Shown here: positions 756 through 56,044 of the stretch, piece by piece | How positions within the stretch are numbered: position 1 is the stretch's first letter | Layout of the letters: the number at the start of each line of letters is the position of its first letter | NCBI GenBank assembly: GCA_026988095.1 | Contig: JALSLX010000076.1 | Location: 1 to 56,197, forward strand | Direction: 5' to 3' | DNA length: 56,197 nt | Source of the DNA: Thiotrichaceae bacterium | GTDB taxonomy: Bacteria > Pseudomonadota > Gammaproteobacteria > Thiotrichales > Thiotrichaceae | Made by a program: the position numbers and the translations under genes | The notes under the pieces: generated by a model | The model's input: the letters and a program-made list of their open reading frames with translations, nothing else | Database searches by the model: none | What the model was told of the DNA's origin: nothing

Positions 756-762
756 TAGTACT

Positions 763-790
763 CACCCCCCCTGTTTTTGCCGTTTTGTAA
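763..790 (+). repeat. half copy (C-rich left arm) of the dispersed palindromic repeat
   Basis: The sequence from 763 carries a run of C followed by CTGTTTTTGCCGTTTTGTAA. It matches the left arm of the full hairpin copies near 30379, 44132 and 48398, with one extra change (TTGCC for TTCGC). No G-rich partner arm follows before the next gene, so this copy is solitary. It lies between the secreted protein and the DUF1186 gene. Confidence 0.7.
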
Positions 791-1779: not shown

Positions 1780-3512
1780 TCTAAGGTTAGGATTTCATCC
1801 ATCGCATCTAATCCCGTTTGACGATGCGTAATCAACAAAATACTGGTCTCTTTTTTATAATCAAATAGCGCGTTTAAGAGATTCGTTTCTGTTTGACTAT
1901 CCAAGCCTTCGCCCGGCTCATCCAAAATTAGTACTGGCGAATTTTTCAGTAATGCTCGCGCGATTGTTAAGCGCTTTAATTGTCCGCCAGAAAGTTTTAG
2001 CCCTGCTTCGCCGACCCATGTGTCGTAGCTCTCTGGAAGAGATACTATAAAATCGTGAATTTGCGCCACACGACAAACCTGCTCGACCTCGGCATCGGAT
2101 GCGTCTCGTTTTGCTAAGAGTAAATTACTTTTTATGGTGCTGTTAAAAAAGTGACTTTGCTGGGTTACTACAGAAAAATATTGGCGAATATCTTCACCTT
2201 TGTATTGTGATAGCTCATGTCCGCCGTAGGTGATTGACCCTGATGTTGGCTCCCAGAATCGCAGTAGCAAATTTACGATACTACTTTTCCCGATGCCACT
2301 GCTGCCGACGATGCCTAGACGTTTTCCTTGCGGGAGTGAAAAACTCAAATCATTAAATACATCGTCTGTGCTGTTATTCTCGTTTTGGTCATAGCTGAAA
2401 CTTACGCTGTTAAAAACTATATCGTTATTGTTAGGGGTTGGAGAATCCGTTTTGGGTTCTTCGACTTGTGGTTTTGCATCGACAAGTGTGAATATGCGGC
2501 GCGCTGCCGCTAGCGTTTCTGGCAAGGTTTGAAAAGCTAACGGTAGTGCTCCCACTGCTTCAAAACTTGCCAGTGTAAATAAGGTTAACATTACTAAATT
2601 TGGTGACGATAACAGCTCTTGCGTCCCTGCATTTATTAGCCCCGATTTTGTTAGCAACGGTATTGCGATCACCACAACGCCTAACATGGCAATATTAGTG
2701 CATAAGCTCAAAATGGATTGCGATAGTGCAAAGTGACTTGCCAATTTACTTTGCTGAGTTAATAGCTGTTTACTGAGTTTATCGACTTTTTCTATTTGCT
2801 GAGGCGCCGCACCATAAATTAATAATTCGCCCATGCCTTGTACGCTGTCAATCACTTGGGTGCGAAGCTCACTGGATAGCTCAACTTTCTTTTTAGCAGG
2901 TTTTGCGCTAAATTTATTAACCCATAACGGTGTGATAACGCCAGCGATAATAAACATCAACAATACAAAAATCGCCAGCAGATTATCATAACGTGATAAG
3001 AACCAAATAAATAAACCACAGGCAATAATGGCAACCGTGACAGGAACAATAATGCGGATATAAACATTTTCTAGCGTGTCAATATCAGCGCGGATTCTGC
3101 TTAATAAATCACCACTGTGATAGCGTTGCAATACAGCGGGTGCCAACGGTTCTAAATGCAGATAAAACCAATGACGTAGCTCTGCGATCACCCGAAATGT
3201 GGCTTCGTGTGTGATGACTCGTTCAGCGTAACGGCTTGCTGTACGCGCAATGGCTAAGCCACGAATGCCTGCCGCTGGGCTAAAATAATCAATCGATGCA
3301 GCTGTAAGTCCCGCTATTGCCATAGAGGTAATAAACCAGCCTGACAATGCCATTAAGGTGACGTTGGATAAAACGGTTATGAGTGCCAGTAGAATACCCA
3401 GTGACATCCAGCCCCAATAAGGTTTGAATAACCGCCAAAGTCGTAAGAAAACAGCGGTGTCACTTTGTTGATTTTTTGTGGTTTCTGTATTTGTTCCTAT
3501 AGATTCACTCAT
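1776..3512 (-). CDS. cydC: CydC, ABC exporter subunit for cytochrome bd assembly
   Basis: 578 residues, type IV ABC half-transporter. The transmembrane domain covers roughly residues 20-310 and the nucleotide-binding domain 360-578, with Walker A GSSGIGKSS at 403, signature LSGGQ at 507, Walker B VLILDEP near 530 and H-loop His at 563. CydC pairs with CydD in the inner membrane. The complex is needed for cytochrome bd assembly and has been linked to cysteine/glutathione export and, more recently, haem transport. It overlaps cydD by four bases (ATGA), as expected for a two-gene operon. An 82-bp relic of the same 3' end lies at 22678-22759. Confidence 0.95.
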   Translation of the reverse strand: MSESIGTNTETTKNQQSDTAVFLRLWRLFKPYWGWMSLGILLALITVLSNVTLMALSGWFITSMAIAGLTAASIDYFSPAAGIRGLAIARTASRYAERVITHEATFRVIAELRHWFYLHLEPLAPAVLQRYHSGDLLSRIRADIDTLENVYIRIIVPVTVAIIACGLFIWFLSRYDNLLAIFVLLMFIIAGVITPLWVNKFSAKPAKKKVELSSELRTQVIDSVQGMGELLIYGAAPQQIEKVDKLSKQLLTQQSKLASHFALSQSILSLCTNIAMLGVVVIAIPLLTKSGLINAGTQELLSSPNLVMLTLFTLASFEAVGALPLAFQTLPETLAAARRIFTLVDAKPQVEEPKTDSPTPNNNDIVFNSVSFSYDQNENNSTDDVFNDLSFSLPQGKRLGIVGSSGIGKSSIVNLLLRFWEPTSGSITYGGHELSQYKGEDIRQYFSVVTQQSHFFNSTIKSNLLLAKRDASDAEVEQVCRVAQIHDFIVSLPESYDTWVGEAGLKLSGGQLKRLTIARALLKNSPVLILDEPGEGLDSQTETNLLNALFDYKKETSILLITHRQTGLDAMDEILTLD

Positions 3513-5371
3513 GCGGGACTTTCCATGCCTTCAAAAATAGCTAGCATTTTTTTATAATTTGTACCGTTCTCTTGAGGTGAGTTTTTAGATGATAGTAATT
3601 GTTGATGCGTGCCCACTTCAACCACCCTACCTTTGTCCATAACAACAATTTTATCCGCATCTTTAATGGTGTTAAGTCGATGCGCGATGGTAATAACAGT
3701 CTTACCTTTTGATAAGCGTTTGATGCTTTGTTGGATTAGTTCTTCACTGGTTTTATCAAGGTTTGCCGTTGCCTCATCTAAAATTAATAATGGCGCATCT
3801 TTCAGAAAAGCGCGCGCTAAGGCAATGCGTTGAATTTGCCCGCCAGATAAACCTTCACCTTTTTCGCCTATCATCGTGTCATAACCATCAGTAAATGATT
3901 CGATAAATTCTGCCGCGTTTGCCAGTTCTGCGGCTTGTTTTATGTCAGTATCCACAGCACTCGTTGCGCCTAAACGGATATTGTCGGCAATTGTTCCGTG
4001 AAATAAATAGGGTCGCTGTGGAACCCATGCGATGTACTTGCGCCAGTTTTCTATGCCGAGTGAATTTAAATTCACCCCATCTACCTGTATTTCACCCTTG
4101 TTTGCGCCTGTATTGTTAACACTAGAATTTTTATCATCATTAAGCTGAATAAAACCCAACAATAAATTTGCCACGGTACTTTTTCCTGCTCCGCTTTCAC
4201 CAATCAGTGCTATTCGTTTCCCTGCTTTTATTTCTAAGGAGAAACCATCAAGCGCTTGCCTTCCTTCTTCATACGAAAAGAACACATGATTAAAAGAAAT
4301 AGCTGGCACTTGGCTTTCCCGTACAAAATGACCAAAAAAGGGGGGGGTGGGCTTTGTATCTGTTGTTATTTGTGTTTGCGACTTGGATTCCTCCAAAGAA
4401 GATACCGCAGGCGTTTCCAAGATTTCTACCATCTGTTCTGCCGCACCAATCGCCTCCATGCGAGCATGATAATGTGTACCCATGTTGCGCAGTGGCAAAT
4501 AGAATTCGGGGGCAAGTAGCAGTACGAAGAACCCTAATAAAAAATCCATCTCACCGTAGTACAAACGAAAACCAATTAACACGGCGACCATGGCAATGCT
4601 CACGGTGGCTAAGAACTCCAGCACCAACGAAGACAAAAAGGCGACACGTAAAACAGACATGGTGCTACGACGGTAATCATCTGATATTCGTGCAATCAGA
4701 TCTGCTTCTCGTTTTGAGGTATTGAATATTTTCAAGGTGGTTAAGCCTTGAATCATATCCAGAAAATGTGCGCTCATTCGCGCTAGCTTGCGCCATTGTT
4801 TTTTATTAAGGCTTTCGGTGCCTTTGCCAATTAATATCATAAAGAAAGGAATTAATGGCGCAGTCACCAGCATCACAGTTGCTGAAATCCAATCAATAGG
4901 AAATACAAAAACCAAAATGGATAACGGCACTAAAACGATTAAAGACATCGCGGGAATATAACGAGCGTAATAGTTTTCGAGTGCTTCGATGCCATCAACT
5001 AGCGTGTTGACTCTTTCGCCACTTCCTTCATTACCCAGTGTAATTGGACCAGCATTTAATAAGTGCCGATGTAATTTATCGCGTAATTGTTGTTTGATTT
5101 TTGCAGAAGCATGAAACGCCGCTTTTTCAGATGCCCAAGCTAAAAAGGCACGTACAAAGAAAACTGCCAGTAACATCCATAACCAGCTTTGTACTTCATG
5201 GAGTGTTTGTTTTTCGAAGATTACACCATTTATGGCACTGGCTAAAAACCAAGCTTGAGCGATTAATAAAAAGCCTGAAAATAAACCAAGCCCGACAGAA
5301 ACTTGTAACCAGCCTGAGGTAAAGGATTTTTGAGCATTTAAAAAACGTTTAGTGAGTGCATCAGTGGGCAT
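3509..5371 (-). CDS. cydD: CydD, ABC exporter subunit for cytochrome bd assembly
   Basis: 620 residues, longer than most CydD proteins (E. coli 588). A six-helix transmembrane domain occupies the first 310 residues. The nucleotide-binding domain has Walker A GESGAGKST at 391, LSGGQ at 508 and Walker B LLILDEA near 530. The extra length sits in the linker between the domains (about 325-355) and in a loop after Walker A. Part of the linker is encoded by a half copy of the dispersed repeat (4322-4351). It is first in the cydDC operon and is separated from cydABX by a strong hairpin terminator, so the pair may have its own promoter or depend on readthrough. Confidence 0.95.
   Translation of the reverse strand: MPTDALTKRFLNAQKSFTSGWLQVSVGLGLFSGFLLIAQAWFLASAINGVIFEKQTLHEVQSWLWMLLAVFFVRAFLAWASEKAAFHASAKIKQQLRDKLHRHLLNAGPITLGNEGSGERVNTLVDGIEALENYYARYIPAMSLIVLVPLSILVFVFPIDWISATVMLVTAPLIPFFMILIGKGTESLNKKQWRKLARMSAHFLDMIQGLTTLKIFNTSKREADLIARISDDYRRSTMSVLRVAFLSSLVLEFLATVSIAMVAVLIGFRLYYGEMDFLLGFFVLLLAPEFYLPLRNMGTHYHARMEAIGAAEQMVEILETPAVSSLEESKSQTQITTDTKPTPPFFGHFVRESQVPAISFNHVFFSYEEGRQALDGFSLEIKAGKRIALIGESGAGKSTVANLLLGFIQLNDDKNSSVNNTGANKGEIQVDGVNLNSLGIENWRKYIAWVPQRPYLFHGTIADNIRLGATSAVDTDIKQAAELANAAEFIESFTDGYDTMIGEKGEGLSGGQIQRIALARAFLKDAPLLILDEATANLDKTSEELIQQSIKRLSKGKTVITIAHRLNTIKDADKIVVMDKGRVVEVGTHQQLLSSKNSPQENGTNYKKMLAIFEGMESPA
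4322..4351 (-). repeat. half copy of the dispersed repeat inside the cydD coding sequence
   Basis: The plus-strand text TACAAAATGACCAAAAAAG followed by eight G and TGG matches the G-rich right arm of the family (TACAAAACAGCGAAAAACAG then seven G and TGG). It is read through in frame by cydD and encodes part of the interdomain linker (PTPPFFGHFV, about residues 341-350). The match is imperfect, but the G run and flanking order are the same. Confidence 0.5.
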
Positions 5372-17335: not shown

Positions 17336-17837
17336 ACCCGATATAGACAAAATACACGAGCTCATCTTAGAGGCTCCAATAGGAAAATATATAGGTGACA
17401 GAGGCGCAAGAATTTTTGCAGAACATGCCTGCTGTGTTAATGAATTAAAAGATGGTGACTTCCTTTTCAAAAAAGGTGAAACAACAACCAGCTTTTATAT
17501 TGTTGCAGAAGGGCGTTTGGCGCTAGTTAAAAACAAAAAGAAGAAAAAAGAAGAAAAGCCACGTATTCTACATCTTTTAGATGAAGGCGACCTTGTAGGA
17601 GAACTCAGTTTTATTGATGATACCAAGCATGCATCAACCGTTATTGCTATTGGTGACGCAAGAGTCTTACAATTTAAAGCCGAAGATATCAGACCCTTAA
17701 TTTTAAAAGAACCACAAGTCATGTTTGATTTTATGAGAGCTGTTGTGAAACGCGTTCATCATACGGTGACATCAATTAGCCAGCAACAACTTGCTTTGTC
17801 TGATTATATTGCTACCGCTGGCAAAGGAAGGTTGTAA
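17328..17837 (+). CDS. hoxI: HoxI, cyclic-nucleotide-binding-domain protein of the soluble hydrogenase
   Basis: 169 residues forming one cNMP-binding fold (GDFLFKKGETTTSFYIVAEG, then GDLVGELSFIDDTKHASTVIA) with no DNA-binding domain. In Ralstonia, HoxI is an accessory subunit attached to the NAD-reducing hydrogenase and linked to NADPH-dependent activation. Position directly after hoxW supports the same assignment. The ribosome-binding site is a clear AGGAG at the end of hoxW. The stop codon lies inside a perfect 17-bp stem. Confidence 0.88.
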   Translation: MNKPDIDKIHELILEAPIGKYIGDRGARIFAEHACCVNELKDGDFLFKKGETTTSFYIVAEGRLALVKNKKKKKEEKPRILHLLDEGDLVGELSFIDDTKHASTVIAIGDARVLQFKAEDIRPLILKEPQVMFDFMRAVVKRVHHTVTSISQQQLALSDYIATAGKGRL

Positions 17838-17864
17838 TTGATTTAAGCAATTACAACCTTCCTT
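17824..17864 (+). terminator. perfect 17-bp hairpin across the hoxI stop codon
   Basis: AAGGAAGGTTGTAATTG, a seven-base loop (ATTTAAG), then the exact complement. The hoxI stop TAA (17835-17837) is inside the left arm. There is no U tract after the stem, so it may serve as an mRNA-processing or 3'-end-protecting structure, or attenuate transcription into hypC, rather than act as a classical terminator. Confidence 0.6.
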
Positions 17865-17889
17865 TCCTTAAATAACAGAGAAAAGCATC

Positions 17890-18361: not shown

Positions 18362-18374
18362 TATGTATTATCCG

Positions 18375-18404
18375 CACAAATCATCGAAAAACAGGGGGGG
18401 TGTG
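18375..18404 (+). repeat. half copy (G-rich right arm) of the dispersed repeat between hypC and the SIS gene
   Basis: ACAAATCATCGAAAAACAG, a run of G, then TGTG. It matches the right arm of the full copies in the ATCATCG subtype. No C-rich partner arm is seen upstream. It lies in the 71-base gap before the SIS-domain gene. Confidence 0.75.
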
Positions 18405-30333: not shown

Positions 30334-30362
30334 CTTGAAAACCTGACTAATTAACCCAATTC
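30334..30362 (+). promoter_or_regulatory. sigma-32 heat-shock promoter for hslVU
   Basis: CTTGAAA (30334-30340), 14-base spacer, CCCAATTC (30355-30362). This is close to the sigma-32 consensus CTTGAAA-N11-16-CCCCATNT. Transcription from about 30370 would give a leader of nearly 300 bases ahead of hslV, holding two inverted-repeat structures. Confidence 0.72.
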
Positions 30363-30378
30363 TTCTTATTTATACATC

Positions 30379-30448
30379 CCACCCCCCCTGTTTTTCGACG
30401 TTTTGTACGTAAATTAGGATACAAAACAGCGAAAAACAGGGGGGGTGG
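30379..30448. repeat. full hairpin copy of the dispersed palindromic repeat
   Basis: Left arm CCACCCCCCCTGTTTTTCG continuing ACGTTTTGTACG; right arm TACAAAACAGCGAAAAACAG then a G run and TGG. The arms pair over about 29 bases with two mismatches around an 11-base loop. This is the best-paired copy in the window and lies in the hslVU leader. Confidence 0.9.
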
Positions 30449-30456
30449 CTTAGCTT

Positions 30457-30644
30457 TTTATGCTTTAAACCTGAATCCGTGACTTCAATGCGGATAACAG
30501 GGCGTAATATATTGGTTTAGCACGAGGTTTTAAAAAATCTTAGCTTCACCCATAGGTTAAGCGGGTATTTTTTAAACTCGTGATGAATCAATAGCTTGCG
30601 TACTGTGCCGTTGTGAAGTCACTGATTCAGGTTAAAGCCATAAG
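30457..30644 (+). repeat. long imperfect hairpin (about 187 nt) in the hslV leader
   Basis: The left arm (about 30457-30545) and right arm (about 30557-30643) are imperfect inverted repeats along their whole length. The outer part is nearly exact (CTTTAAACCTGAATCCGTGA against the complement of TCACTGATTCAGGTTAAAG), and an inner block pairs CACGAGGTTTTAAAAAAT with ATTTTTTAAACTCGTG. The hairpin ends about 20 bases before the hslV start. It could be a structured 5' UTR or a MITE. Confidence 0.75.
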
Positions 30645-33874: not shown

Positions 33875-33998
33875 CCACCCCCCCTGTTTTTCGATGATTT
33901 GTAATTACAAATCGCCGAGCAGAGCGAGACAACAGTTTTTGTTGTTTAAAACTGACCCGAAGGGTGAGGCGTTAGCCGAATCAAAACAGGGTGGGTGG
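33875..33998. repeat. expanded composite copy of the dispersed repeat
   Basis: Left arm CCACCCCCCCTGTTTTTCG followed by ATGATTTGTAATTAC; right end TCAAAACAGGGTGGGTGG, with TATA on both sides. The usual short loop is replaced by about 80 bases that themselves contain ACAAATCG, an AACAGTTTTTGTTGTT palindrome and GACCCGAAGGGTGAGGCGTT. It lies between convergent yidD and hisC and could act as a bidirectional end for both. Confidence 0.8.
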
Positions 33999-44131: not shown

Positions 44132-44211
44132 CCACCCCCCCTGTTTTTCGCTGTTTTGTATTAAACGTTTCTCTCTAATTCGCACAAAACAATGAAAAAG
44201 AAAGGGGGTGG
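44132..44211. repeat. full copy of the dispersed repeat after coaD
   Basis: CCACCCCCCCTGTTTTTCG then CTGTTTTGTA, a 26-base loop, and CACAAAACAATGAAAAAGAA then GGGGGTGG. The right arm has decayed more than the left. The repeat abuts the coaD stop codon and could form its 3' end. Confidence 0.88.
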
Positions 44212-48397: not shown

Positions 48398-48468
48398 CCA
48401 CCCCCCCTGTTTTTCGCTGTTTTGTACGTGATTTAACAATACAAATCATCGAAAAAAGGGGGAGGTGG
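48398..48468. repeat. full copy of the dispersed repeat after nfeD, with mismatched arm subtypes
   Basis: Left arm CCACCCCCCCTGTTTTTCG then CTGTTTTGTA; right arm ACAAATCATCGAAAAAAG then GGGGAGGTGG. The left arm is of the GCTGTTTT subtype and the right of the ATCATCG subtype, so the inner part of the stem pairs poorly. Confidence 0.87.
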
Positions 48469-48553
48469 TCAGTTTAAAACATGCAAAAGCCAATAATTTG
48501 GTTTAATAATTCTATGTTAGACTAAATTGAAATAAATCAAATGGTGAACACGT

Positions 48554-51982: not shown

Positions 51983-51997
51983 ACTGCAAAATAAAAA

Positions 51998-52025
51998 AGG
52001 AGTGATGAATCATCACTCCTTTTTT
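51998..52025 (+). terminator. intrinsic terminator after clpB
   Basis: AGGAGTGATGA, one-base centre, TCATCACTCCT, then six T, with an A run on the other side. The near-perfect palindrome with U tracts on both strands can also end the convergent gene at 52034. Confidence 0.9.
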
Positions 52026-52033
52026 ATTTTAAA

Positions 52034-55319: not shown

Positions 55320-55982
55320 ATGTTTATTGACCAACGACACCGCGATAAAGAAACCACCTCAAAAGGTGAGAAAATCTTTATTGTTATTATTAGTTTAGTT
55401 TTCCTATTTATGATGTCGATGGAAATCATCACTAACTACGAACCACGTAAATTGGGTGCTTTGCTTTTTGTTATTTTTTGGATTCCACTACTATTTATTC
55501 ATGAATTTGGTCATGCCATTATGGCAAAACTACTGGGGTGGCGCGTTAATCGTATAGTGATTGGTTTTGGGAAAGTCCTAGTGCACACGCGTTTACTCGG
55601 TGCGCCAATGGAAATTCGTACCATTCCACTGGAAGGCTTTGTACAAATCGCTCCTAAAACAGTAGCGCTTGCACGACTAAAACATGCACTAATTTATTTT
55701 GCAGGCCCTGGTATTGAACTGTTAGCCTTTTTTATAATTACAGCAGTACTTGGTGGCTTTGATCAAATGTTTAGTATCTCAAATGATTACTCACACATTG
55801 CTTTACAGAGTTTTGCCTTCGCGGCACTTGCTGGCGCAGTGATTAATTTGATTCCCATCGGCATTATTACCAAAGATGGTAATACTCCAAATGATGGCAT
55901 GGGAATCTTACTGTGTTTATTCTCAAGTGGTATGGATTATGAACTTTGGATCCGGGAATCAAATAAAGAAAAAGAGTTTTAA
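55320..55982 (+). CDS. M50 site-2-protease-like membrane peptidase
   Basis: 220 residues. The zinc motif is HEFGH (residues 61-65) in a membrane segment (VIFWIPLLFIHEFGHAIMAKL), and the third ligand region is the later NLIPIG...KDGNTPNDG stretch, matching the M50 NxxPxxxxDG type. About five transmembrane helices. It lacks a PDZ domain, so it is a minimal intramembrane metalloprotease. Substrate unknown. It diverges from the PLA2-like gene with a 40-base spacer. Confidence 0.85.
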   Translation: MFIDQRHRDKETTSKGEKIFIVIISLVFLFMMSMEIITNYEPRKLGALLFVIFWIPLLFIHEFGHAIMAKLLGWRVNRIVIGFGKVLVHTRLLGAPMEIRTIPLEGFVQIAPKTVALARLKHALIYFAGPGIELLAFFIITAVLGGFDQMFSISNDYSHIALQSFAFAALAGAVINLIPIGIITKDGNTPNDGMGILLCLFSSGMDYELWIRESNKEKEF

Positions 55983-56014: not shown

Positions 56015-56044
56015 ACACAAATCATCGAAAATAGGGGGGGGTGA
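56015..56044 (+). repeat. half copy (right arm) of the dispersed repeat
   Basis: ACACAAATCATCGAAAATAG followed by a run of G and TGAC, the ATCATCG subtype of the right arm. No C-rich partner lies upstream; a hairpin abuts it on the left. Confidence 0.75.

Follow-up and report, generated by a model that had tools for sequence, protein, structure and literature searches.

In this study, we describe a large dispersed family of palindromic repeats in the genome of a marine Thiotrichaceae bacterium (G000), built from a nearly invariant 29-bp arm, CCACCCCCCCTGTTTTTCGATGATTTGTA, of which about 213 copies are found across 946 kb. Searches of Rfam and of viral, phage and plasmid sequences, together with the literature, gave no named family matching this arm, in agreement with the original prediction of a family without a known name. 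Our leading but tentative reading, drawn by analogy, is that the arm may be a maintained recognition signal of double-stranded DNA of the uptake type, because species-own dialects, shared junctions, even spacing and a core with two phased T-tracts coincide in it. Membership in the uptake sequences is not claimed, since we found insertion where the known Haemophilus signals are not insertions (PMC1626085).

Size and placement of the repeat family

The family was predicted from eight places in the window, by which we mean the whole stretch of 56,197 nucleotides that was analysed. These places are real, with nine arm matches at no more than three mismatches and none in 100 shuffles. All four hairpins described as full are present, but the right arm of the one at 33875 is split by an insert; likewise, the reported preference for spacers and gene ends holds, but one arm lies within a reading frame. 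The features are as follows.

30334..30361, + strand: heat-shock (sigma-32-like) promoter CTTGAAAACCTGACTAATTAACCCAATT, upstream of the first hairpin, read by eye against the known consensus
30379..30448, no strand: hairpin of outer length 70, arms 30379-30407 and 30420-30448, 93% complementary, placed in the 5' leader of hslV with an MsbA-like ABC gene on the other side
33875..33998, no strand: hairpin in the spacer of the convergent genes hisI and hisC, with its left arm at 33875-33903 and its right arm (33906-33918 and 33980-33998) split by a 61-base insert at 33919-33979
44132..44211, no strand: hairpin of outer length 80, directly 3' of the coaD stop codon, before a ferredoxin-like gene
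48398..48469, no strand: hairpin with an outer length of about 70, flanked by an NfeD-like gene and a gene with a rhodanese domain
761..790, + strand: weak single arm, with a gene of unknown family on one side and a DUF1186 gene on the other
4321..4350, - strand: single arm within a reading frame for an ABC transporter (3509-5371, minus), where it falls in the variable linker that precedes the ATPase domain
18374..18403, - strand: single arm in the spacer separating a hypC-like gene from a SIS-domain gene
56015..56044, - strand: single arm 3' of ORF 55320-55982

Several other elements accompany these copies. The insert at 33919-33979 is bounded by GCCGA repeats, and a similar one splits an arm at locus L177, position 4156 (near 4185). 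Upstream of hslV, a similar sigma-32-like promoter stands in G001 and G011, and in each the leader also carries the dialect word of that species. Between hairpin and hslV, 30479-30623 is occupied by another dispersed repeat, CCTGAATCCGTGACTTCAATGCGGATAACAGGG..., which recurs 3' of an arm in G003 (L206) and in L151, near 10731. Near-perfect 21-bp inverted repeats unrelated to the family, at 51988-52030 and 17823-17865, follow directly after genes and are likely normal terminators.

Searching the whole genome with the arm, as had been proposed, revealed a family far larger than the window shows: an 18-base core at no more than three mismatches gave 375 matches, against one for the reversed control. 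G000 is a draft metagenome-assembled genome (MAG; 2.26 Mb, 167 contigs, 92% complete), and a 30-position matrix (consensus CCACCCCCCCTGTTTTTCGATGATTTGTAT; best shuffled score below -4, real arms mostly above 40) applied to 946 kb of it (42%) resolved the 213 arms into 62 hairpins, 11 back-to-back pairs and 67 single arms. The layout on this matrix is a C-run core, CCACCCCCCCTG, followed one and two helical turns downstream by T-tracts, TTTTT centred at 14 and TTTG near 24. Units are short, carry inverted ends and hold no gene. About half of them are single arms without a visible partner, even a faint trace of which is seen for a minority only, and a single arm forms no hairpin of its own. Within G000 the arms are uniform while loops, far less alike, and flanks vary, and the two sides of one hairpin have variants in common (2.98 mismatches versus 4.18 when shuffled).

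Only 10 of 140 units lie inside genes, as judged with gene calls from our own codon model, whose starts are approximate. Hairpins are enriched in convergent spacers, 20/58 versus 73/473 (Fisher p 8e-4), which bears out the predicted bias to gene ends; in tandem spacers they stand a median of 36 nt past the stop codon, and divergent spacers are favoured by single arms more than by hairpins (Fisher p 0.016). Spacing between units is even, with a median of 6.7 kb (5-95% range 1.7-12 kb) and a CV of 0.46 versus 0.83 for length-weighted random placement of the same number of units in spacers; such evenness was reached in none of 3000 simulations.

Species dialects and arrival of the copies

Among the 63 genomes of the order, which form one family, only G000 has the G000-type word in abundance, with a close relative of the word in G003 and G006. 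The same layout in own dialects is found in at least seven sister species: ACCCATCCCCCCTGTTTTTTGCATATTTTT in G003 and G006, AAAGTACACCCCCCACCTTTTTTGCCCTTTTC in G007, AAGACACCCCCCTACTTTT..CGGTTTT in G009, CACCCCCCTACTTTgAGgcgTTTTTTT in G001, gtCACCCCCCtaCTTTtAGgcncTTTTT in G011 (15 copies within 34 kb) and a comparable word in G008, the samples being small for G001, G007, G008, G009 and G011. On recount, 1.0 Mb of G005 held no motif apart from a few G000-type copies, and no dialect word was seen in 18 kb of G002. The relatives are draft MAGs with a few near-identical contigs common to bins, and G000-type arms on G004 and G005 contigs were rejected as native: contigs L258 (G005:C6), L157 (G004:C6) and L268 (G005:C16) are 93-99% identical to G000, probably through cross-binning or very recent transfer. 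At loci L230-L240, single arms of G006 follow CCTCTGTCTTCTGTCC tracts and often recur in direct orientation at distances of 86-180 bp, differing in this from G000.

The dialects meet at the same places. G000 has an arm at 21 of 48 junctions where another species has its word, with 9.9 expected after correction for spacer length (P 5e-5; some junctions are counted once per species and so are not fully independent), and the junction upstream of hslV carries an arm in seven species.

Comparison with relatives speaks for insertion. Junctions bearing arms are longer in G000 than in G005 or G004 (11 of 12, median 78 bp), to a similar extent for single arms and hairpins; at the hairpin 44132..44211 the difference from G004 is 74 bp. 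Matched arm-free junctions show no length difference. In amgK the coding loop that holds an arm is longer by exactly 66 bases, in frame, than in G001, G002, G009 and G011, and the same loop of G007 holds its own dialect word with 39 extra bases; two further coding arms come with 12-18 and 21-45 extra bases. The lengthening of arm-bearing junctions indicates that copies arrive with inserted DNA, as judged in distant relatives from spacer lengths and one exact coding case; the arm itself is maintained by something after arrival. The proposed look for empty sites recovered shorter junctions and the amgK case; with relatives about 72% identical in protein, intergenic sites lie beyond base-by-base alignment.

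No target duplication was found in 50 hairpins (offsets 0-14, length 2-9), and no transposase or autonomous copy near arms. In the part of the genome that was read, arms stand 556 and 713 bp apart at two loci, and both contain ordinary genes; a gene cassette, suggested by the GNAT gene between the arms 556 bp apart, was dismissed as chance, since the second case is the arm inside amgK. A RAYT-type (Y1) gene near a copy, looked for as originally proposed, was not found in G000, which holds two Y1 fragments and no full RAYT (genome 92% complete). One weak arm has a Y1 fragment (C139) some 120 bp away, and in G003 a Y1 gene lies roughly 350 bp from one arm; arm density allows for both, and a RAYT link was set aside. 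The proposed filing with REP/MITE elements therefore stands in that copies behave as inserts, but not as regards target duplication, an intact RAYT-type gene, flanks (which are unrelated), the many perfect single arms, even spacing, or dialects at shared junctions. Separately, a REP-like repeat found throughout the genus, GCATCGACACTTCCTTCGGAAGGTGTAACGATA, lies in the loops of the 144- and 200-bp elements (L183 7440-7590, L152 4950-5090, L153 12430-12490). In G004 this repeat is arranged in 107-bp tandem arrays, and an intact Y1 transposase gene lies some 300 bp away from it.

Helical geometry and the flanking A/T wave

Hairpin lengths (60, 69-71, 78-81, 91, 112, 123, 133, 143-144 and 154) sit on a 10.5-bp grid (Rayleigh R 0.81, n=53, p ~7e-16; whole-genome set n=36, p ~9e-11), and the gaps of back-to-back pairs are 24-26, 35-36 and 67. 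Because both follow the helix, we read the arm at the level of DNA. Around the arms, AT content oscillates with a 10.3-bp period, phase-locked to the arm for about 250 bp on each side, with an amplitude of 0.17 at 0-40 bp, 0.107 at 40-80 bp and 0.05-0.065 up to 200 bp, above the 99% null until about 260 bp and equal in coding and non-coding DNA. Amplitude is elevated in arm flanks, at 0.171 versus 0.109 (p 6e-35), phase coherence reaches R 0.70 (185 flanks, 10-110 bp) and 0.40 at 100-200 bp, and arm-free spacers have no 10.3-bp period.

This rotational register mostly predates the arms. Orthologous coding flanks of G005, free of arms, carry the same phase at 0.018-0.025 (bootstrap P ≤0.007), where 0.028-0.030 would be expected for a wholly pre-existing wave; a post-insertion origin of the wave was rejected on this ground. 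At G005 gene ends the overall wave amplitude is not raised and the signal is weak, and arms of G003 and G006 have no clear wave. From sequence alone, the grid and the 250-bp wave suggest that the double helix is read in three dimensions at these sites.

Candidate functions and known systems

As we picture the uptake-type reading, a sequence-specific protein, for instance a DNA-uptake receptor, would recognize the 29-bp arm as double-stranded DNA and prefer own-species DNA carrying its own dialect. Inserts of about 70-80 bp would bring one or two arms into G000, and copies would be held where existing DNA curvature has the right rotational register, with the arms on the same helix face; biased uptake with recombination, or selection, would hold the arms of one species alike as each lineage drifts to a dialect of its own. 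Against uptake speak the insertions and the rarity of units within genes, given that known uptake signals lie 35-65% inside genes. Homologues of ComEC and DprA were not found in the 42% of G000 and are present in G005, which lacks the motif. Possible, though somewhat less probable, is a palindromic mobile element of MITE type, whose putative transposase would pair both ends, so that short elements work only with both ends on the same side of the helix. Its insertions would go to DNA with existing curvature, always in one rotational register, and would avoid the neighbourhood of existing copies, and single arms would be elements whose other arm decayed. This accounts well for the insert lengths, the exact amgK case, the variants common to both arms of a hairpin, the wave in arm-free G005 orthologues, and the length grid, as in Paramecium internal eliminated sequences, whose 10-bp length period is explained by the ends meeting on one helix face (PMC3408717). 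It fits poorly with the lack of target duplications, autonomous copies and transposase, the scarcity of faint partners and the divergence of loops beside uniform arms; even spacing would need transposition immunity, and shared junctions carry different dialects.

The wave and the spacing also bear on a chromosome-organising site, in which arms and phased flanks would be regularly spaced DNA wrapped for gyrase or a nucleoid protein, with gyrase binding by the BIMEs of E. coli as the model. Helical grid, even spacing and phase-locked wave agree with this, as does the preference of E. coli gyrase for a 130-bp phased G/C motif and its cutting in BIME-2 (PMC6379681). Nevertheless, the wave exceeds the gyrase footprint and is unclear at G003 and G006 arms, dialect turnover and absence from G005 would be odd for an essential housekeeping protein, and the information in the arm is far above what a binding site needs, and we consider such a site unlikely. 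We are equally doubtful of its wider form, that arms mark architecture: every ~7 kb, several hundred bp of curved DNA would be wrapped or looped in a fixed rotational register round an arm-nucleated protein, protein and word co-evolving into a new dialect per species. Least probable by far is an RNA element for transcription termination or 3'-end protection. RNA hairpins are strong (-29 to -48 kcal/mol; -47.6 kcal/mol, z -10, for the one at 30379..30448), and convergent spacers and the position past stop codons would suit it. Yet mismatches show no preference for G-U (28, versus 43 A-C), no U-tract stands beside the hairpin, single arms cannot fold, and loop length is set by the DNA helix; a primary role as 3' stabiliser, as originally suggested, is not supported.

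Should the uptake-type reading hold, this would be a third lineage, since within the literature searched such self-recognition words are established in Neisseriaceae and Pasteurellaceae only, and at least four dialects in one genus would allow the birth and switching of words to be studied. Among other known systems, internal eliminated sequences of Paramecium share the length distribution with its ~10-bp period but are eukaryotic, excised and TA-bounded. The E. coli gyrase motif and BIME-2 share a phased A/T pattern flanking a core and intergenic palindromes, with 130 bp in total and no fixed 29-bp word. REP/BIME with RAYT are likewise high-copy, palindromic and intergenic; however, our hairpin consists of two arms rather than one REP, is not a single short hairpin with a GTAG-type foot, and is distinct from the REP-like family inside some loops. 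Bacterial MITEs such as QMITE2 of Coxiella, Chunjie and Correia are short, intergenic and insert-like with 23-29 bp inverted ends, as here, whereas our family has no parent transposon or target duplication and has single arms, even spacing and unconserved loops. Compared with the uptake signals of Haemophilus influenzae (USS) and Neisseria (DUS), our arms are 29 bp long and nearly invariant, coincide with inserts and lie mostly outside genes; they also have the helical grid and long A/T wave, of which the literature searched gives no description for uptake signals, and uptake is proposed here by analogy. In common with USS and DUS, they have hundreds of copies, dialects in related species, no transposase, a relatively even spread and inverted pairs at gene ends, the last as in Neisseria. 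With the USS they share a core and two AT-rich tracts about a helical turn apart on one side, just as Haemophilus signals have a 9-nt core and two AT-rich segments downstream, up to 32 nt (PMC12616744; PMC1626085).
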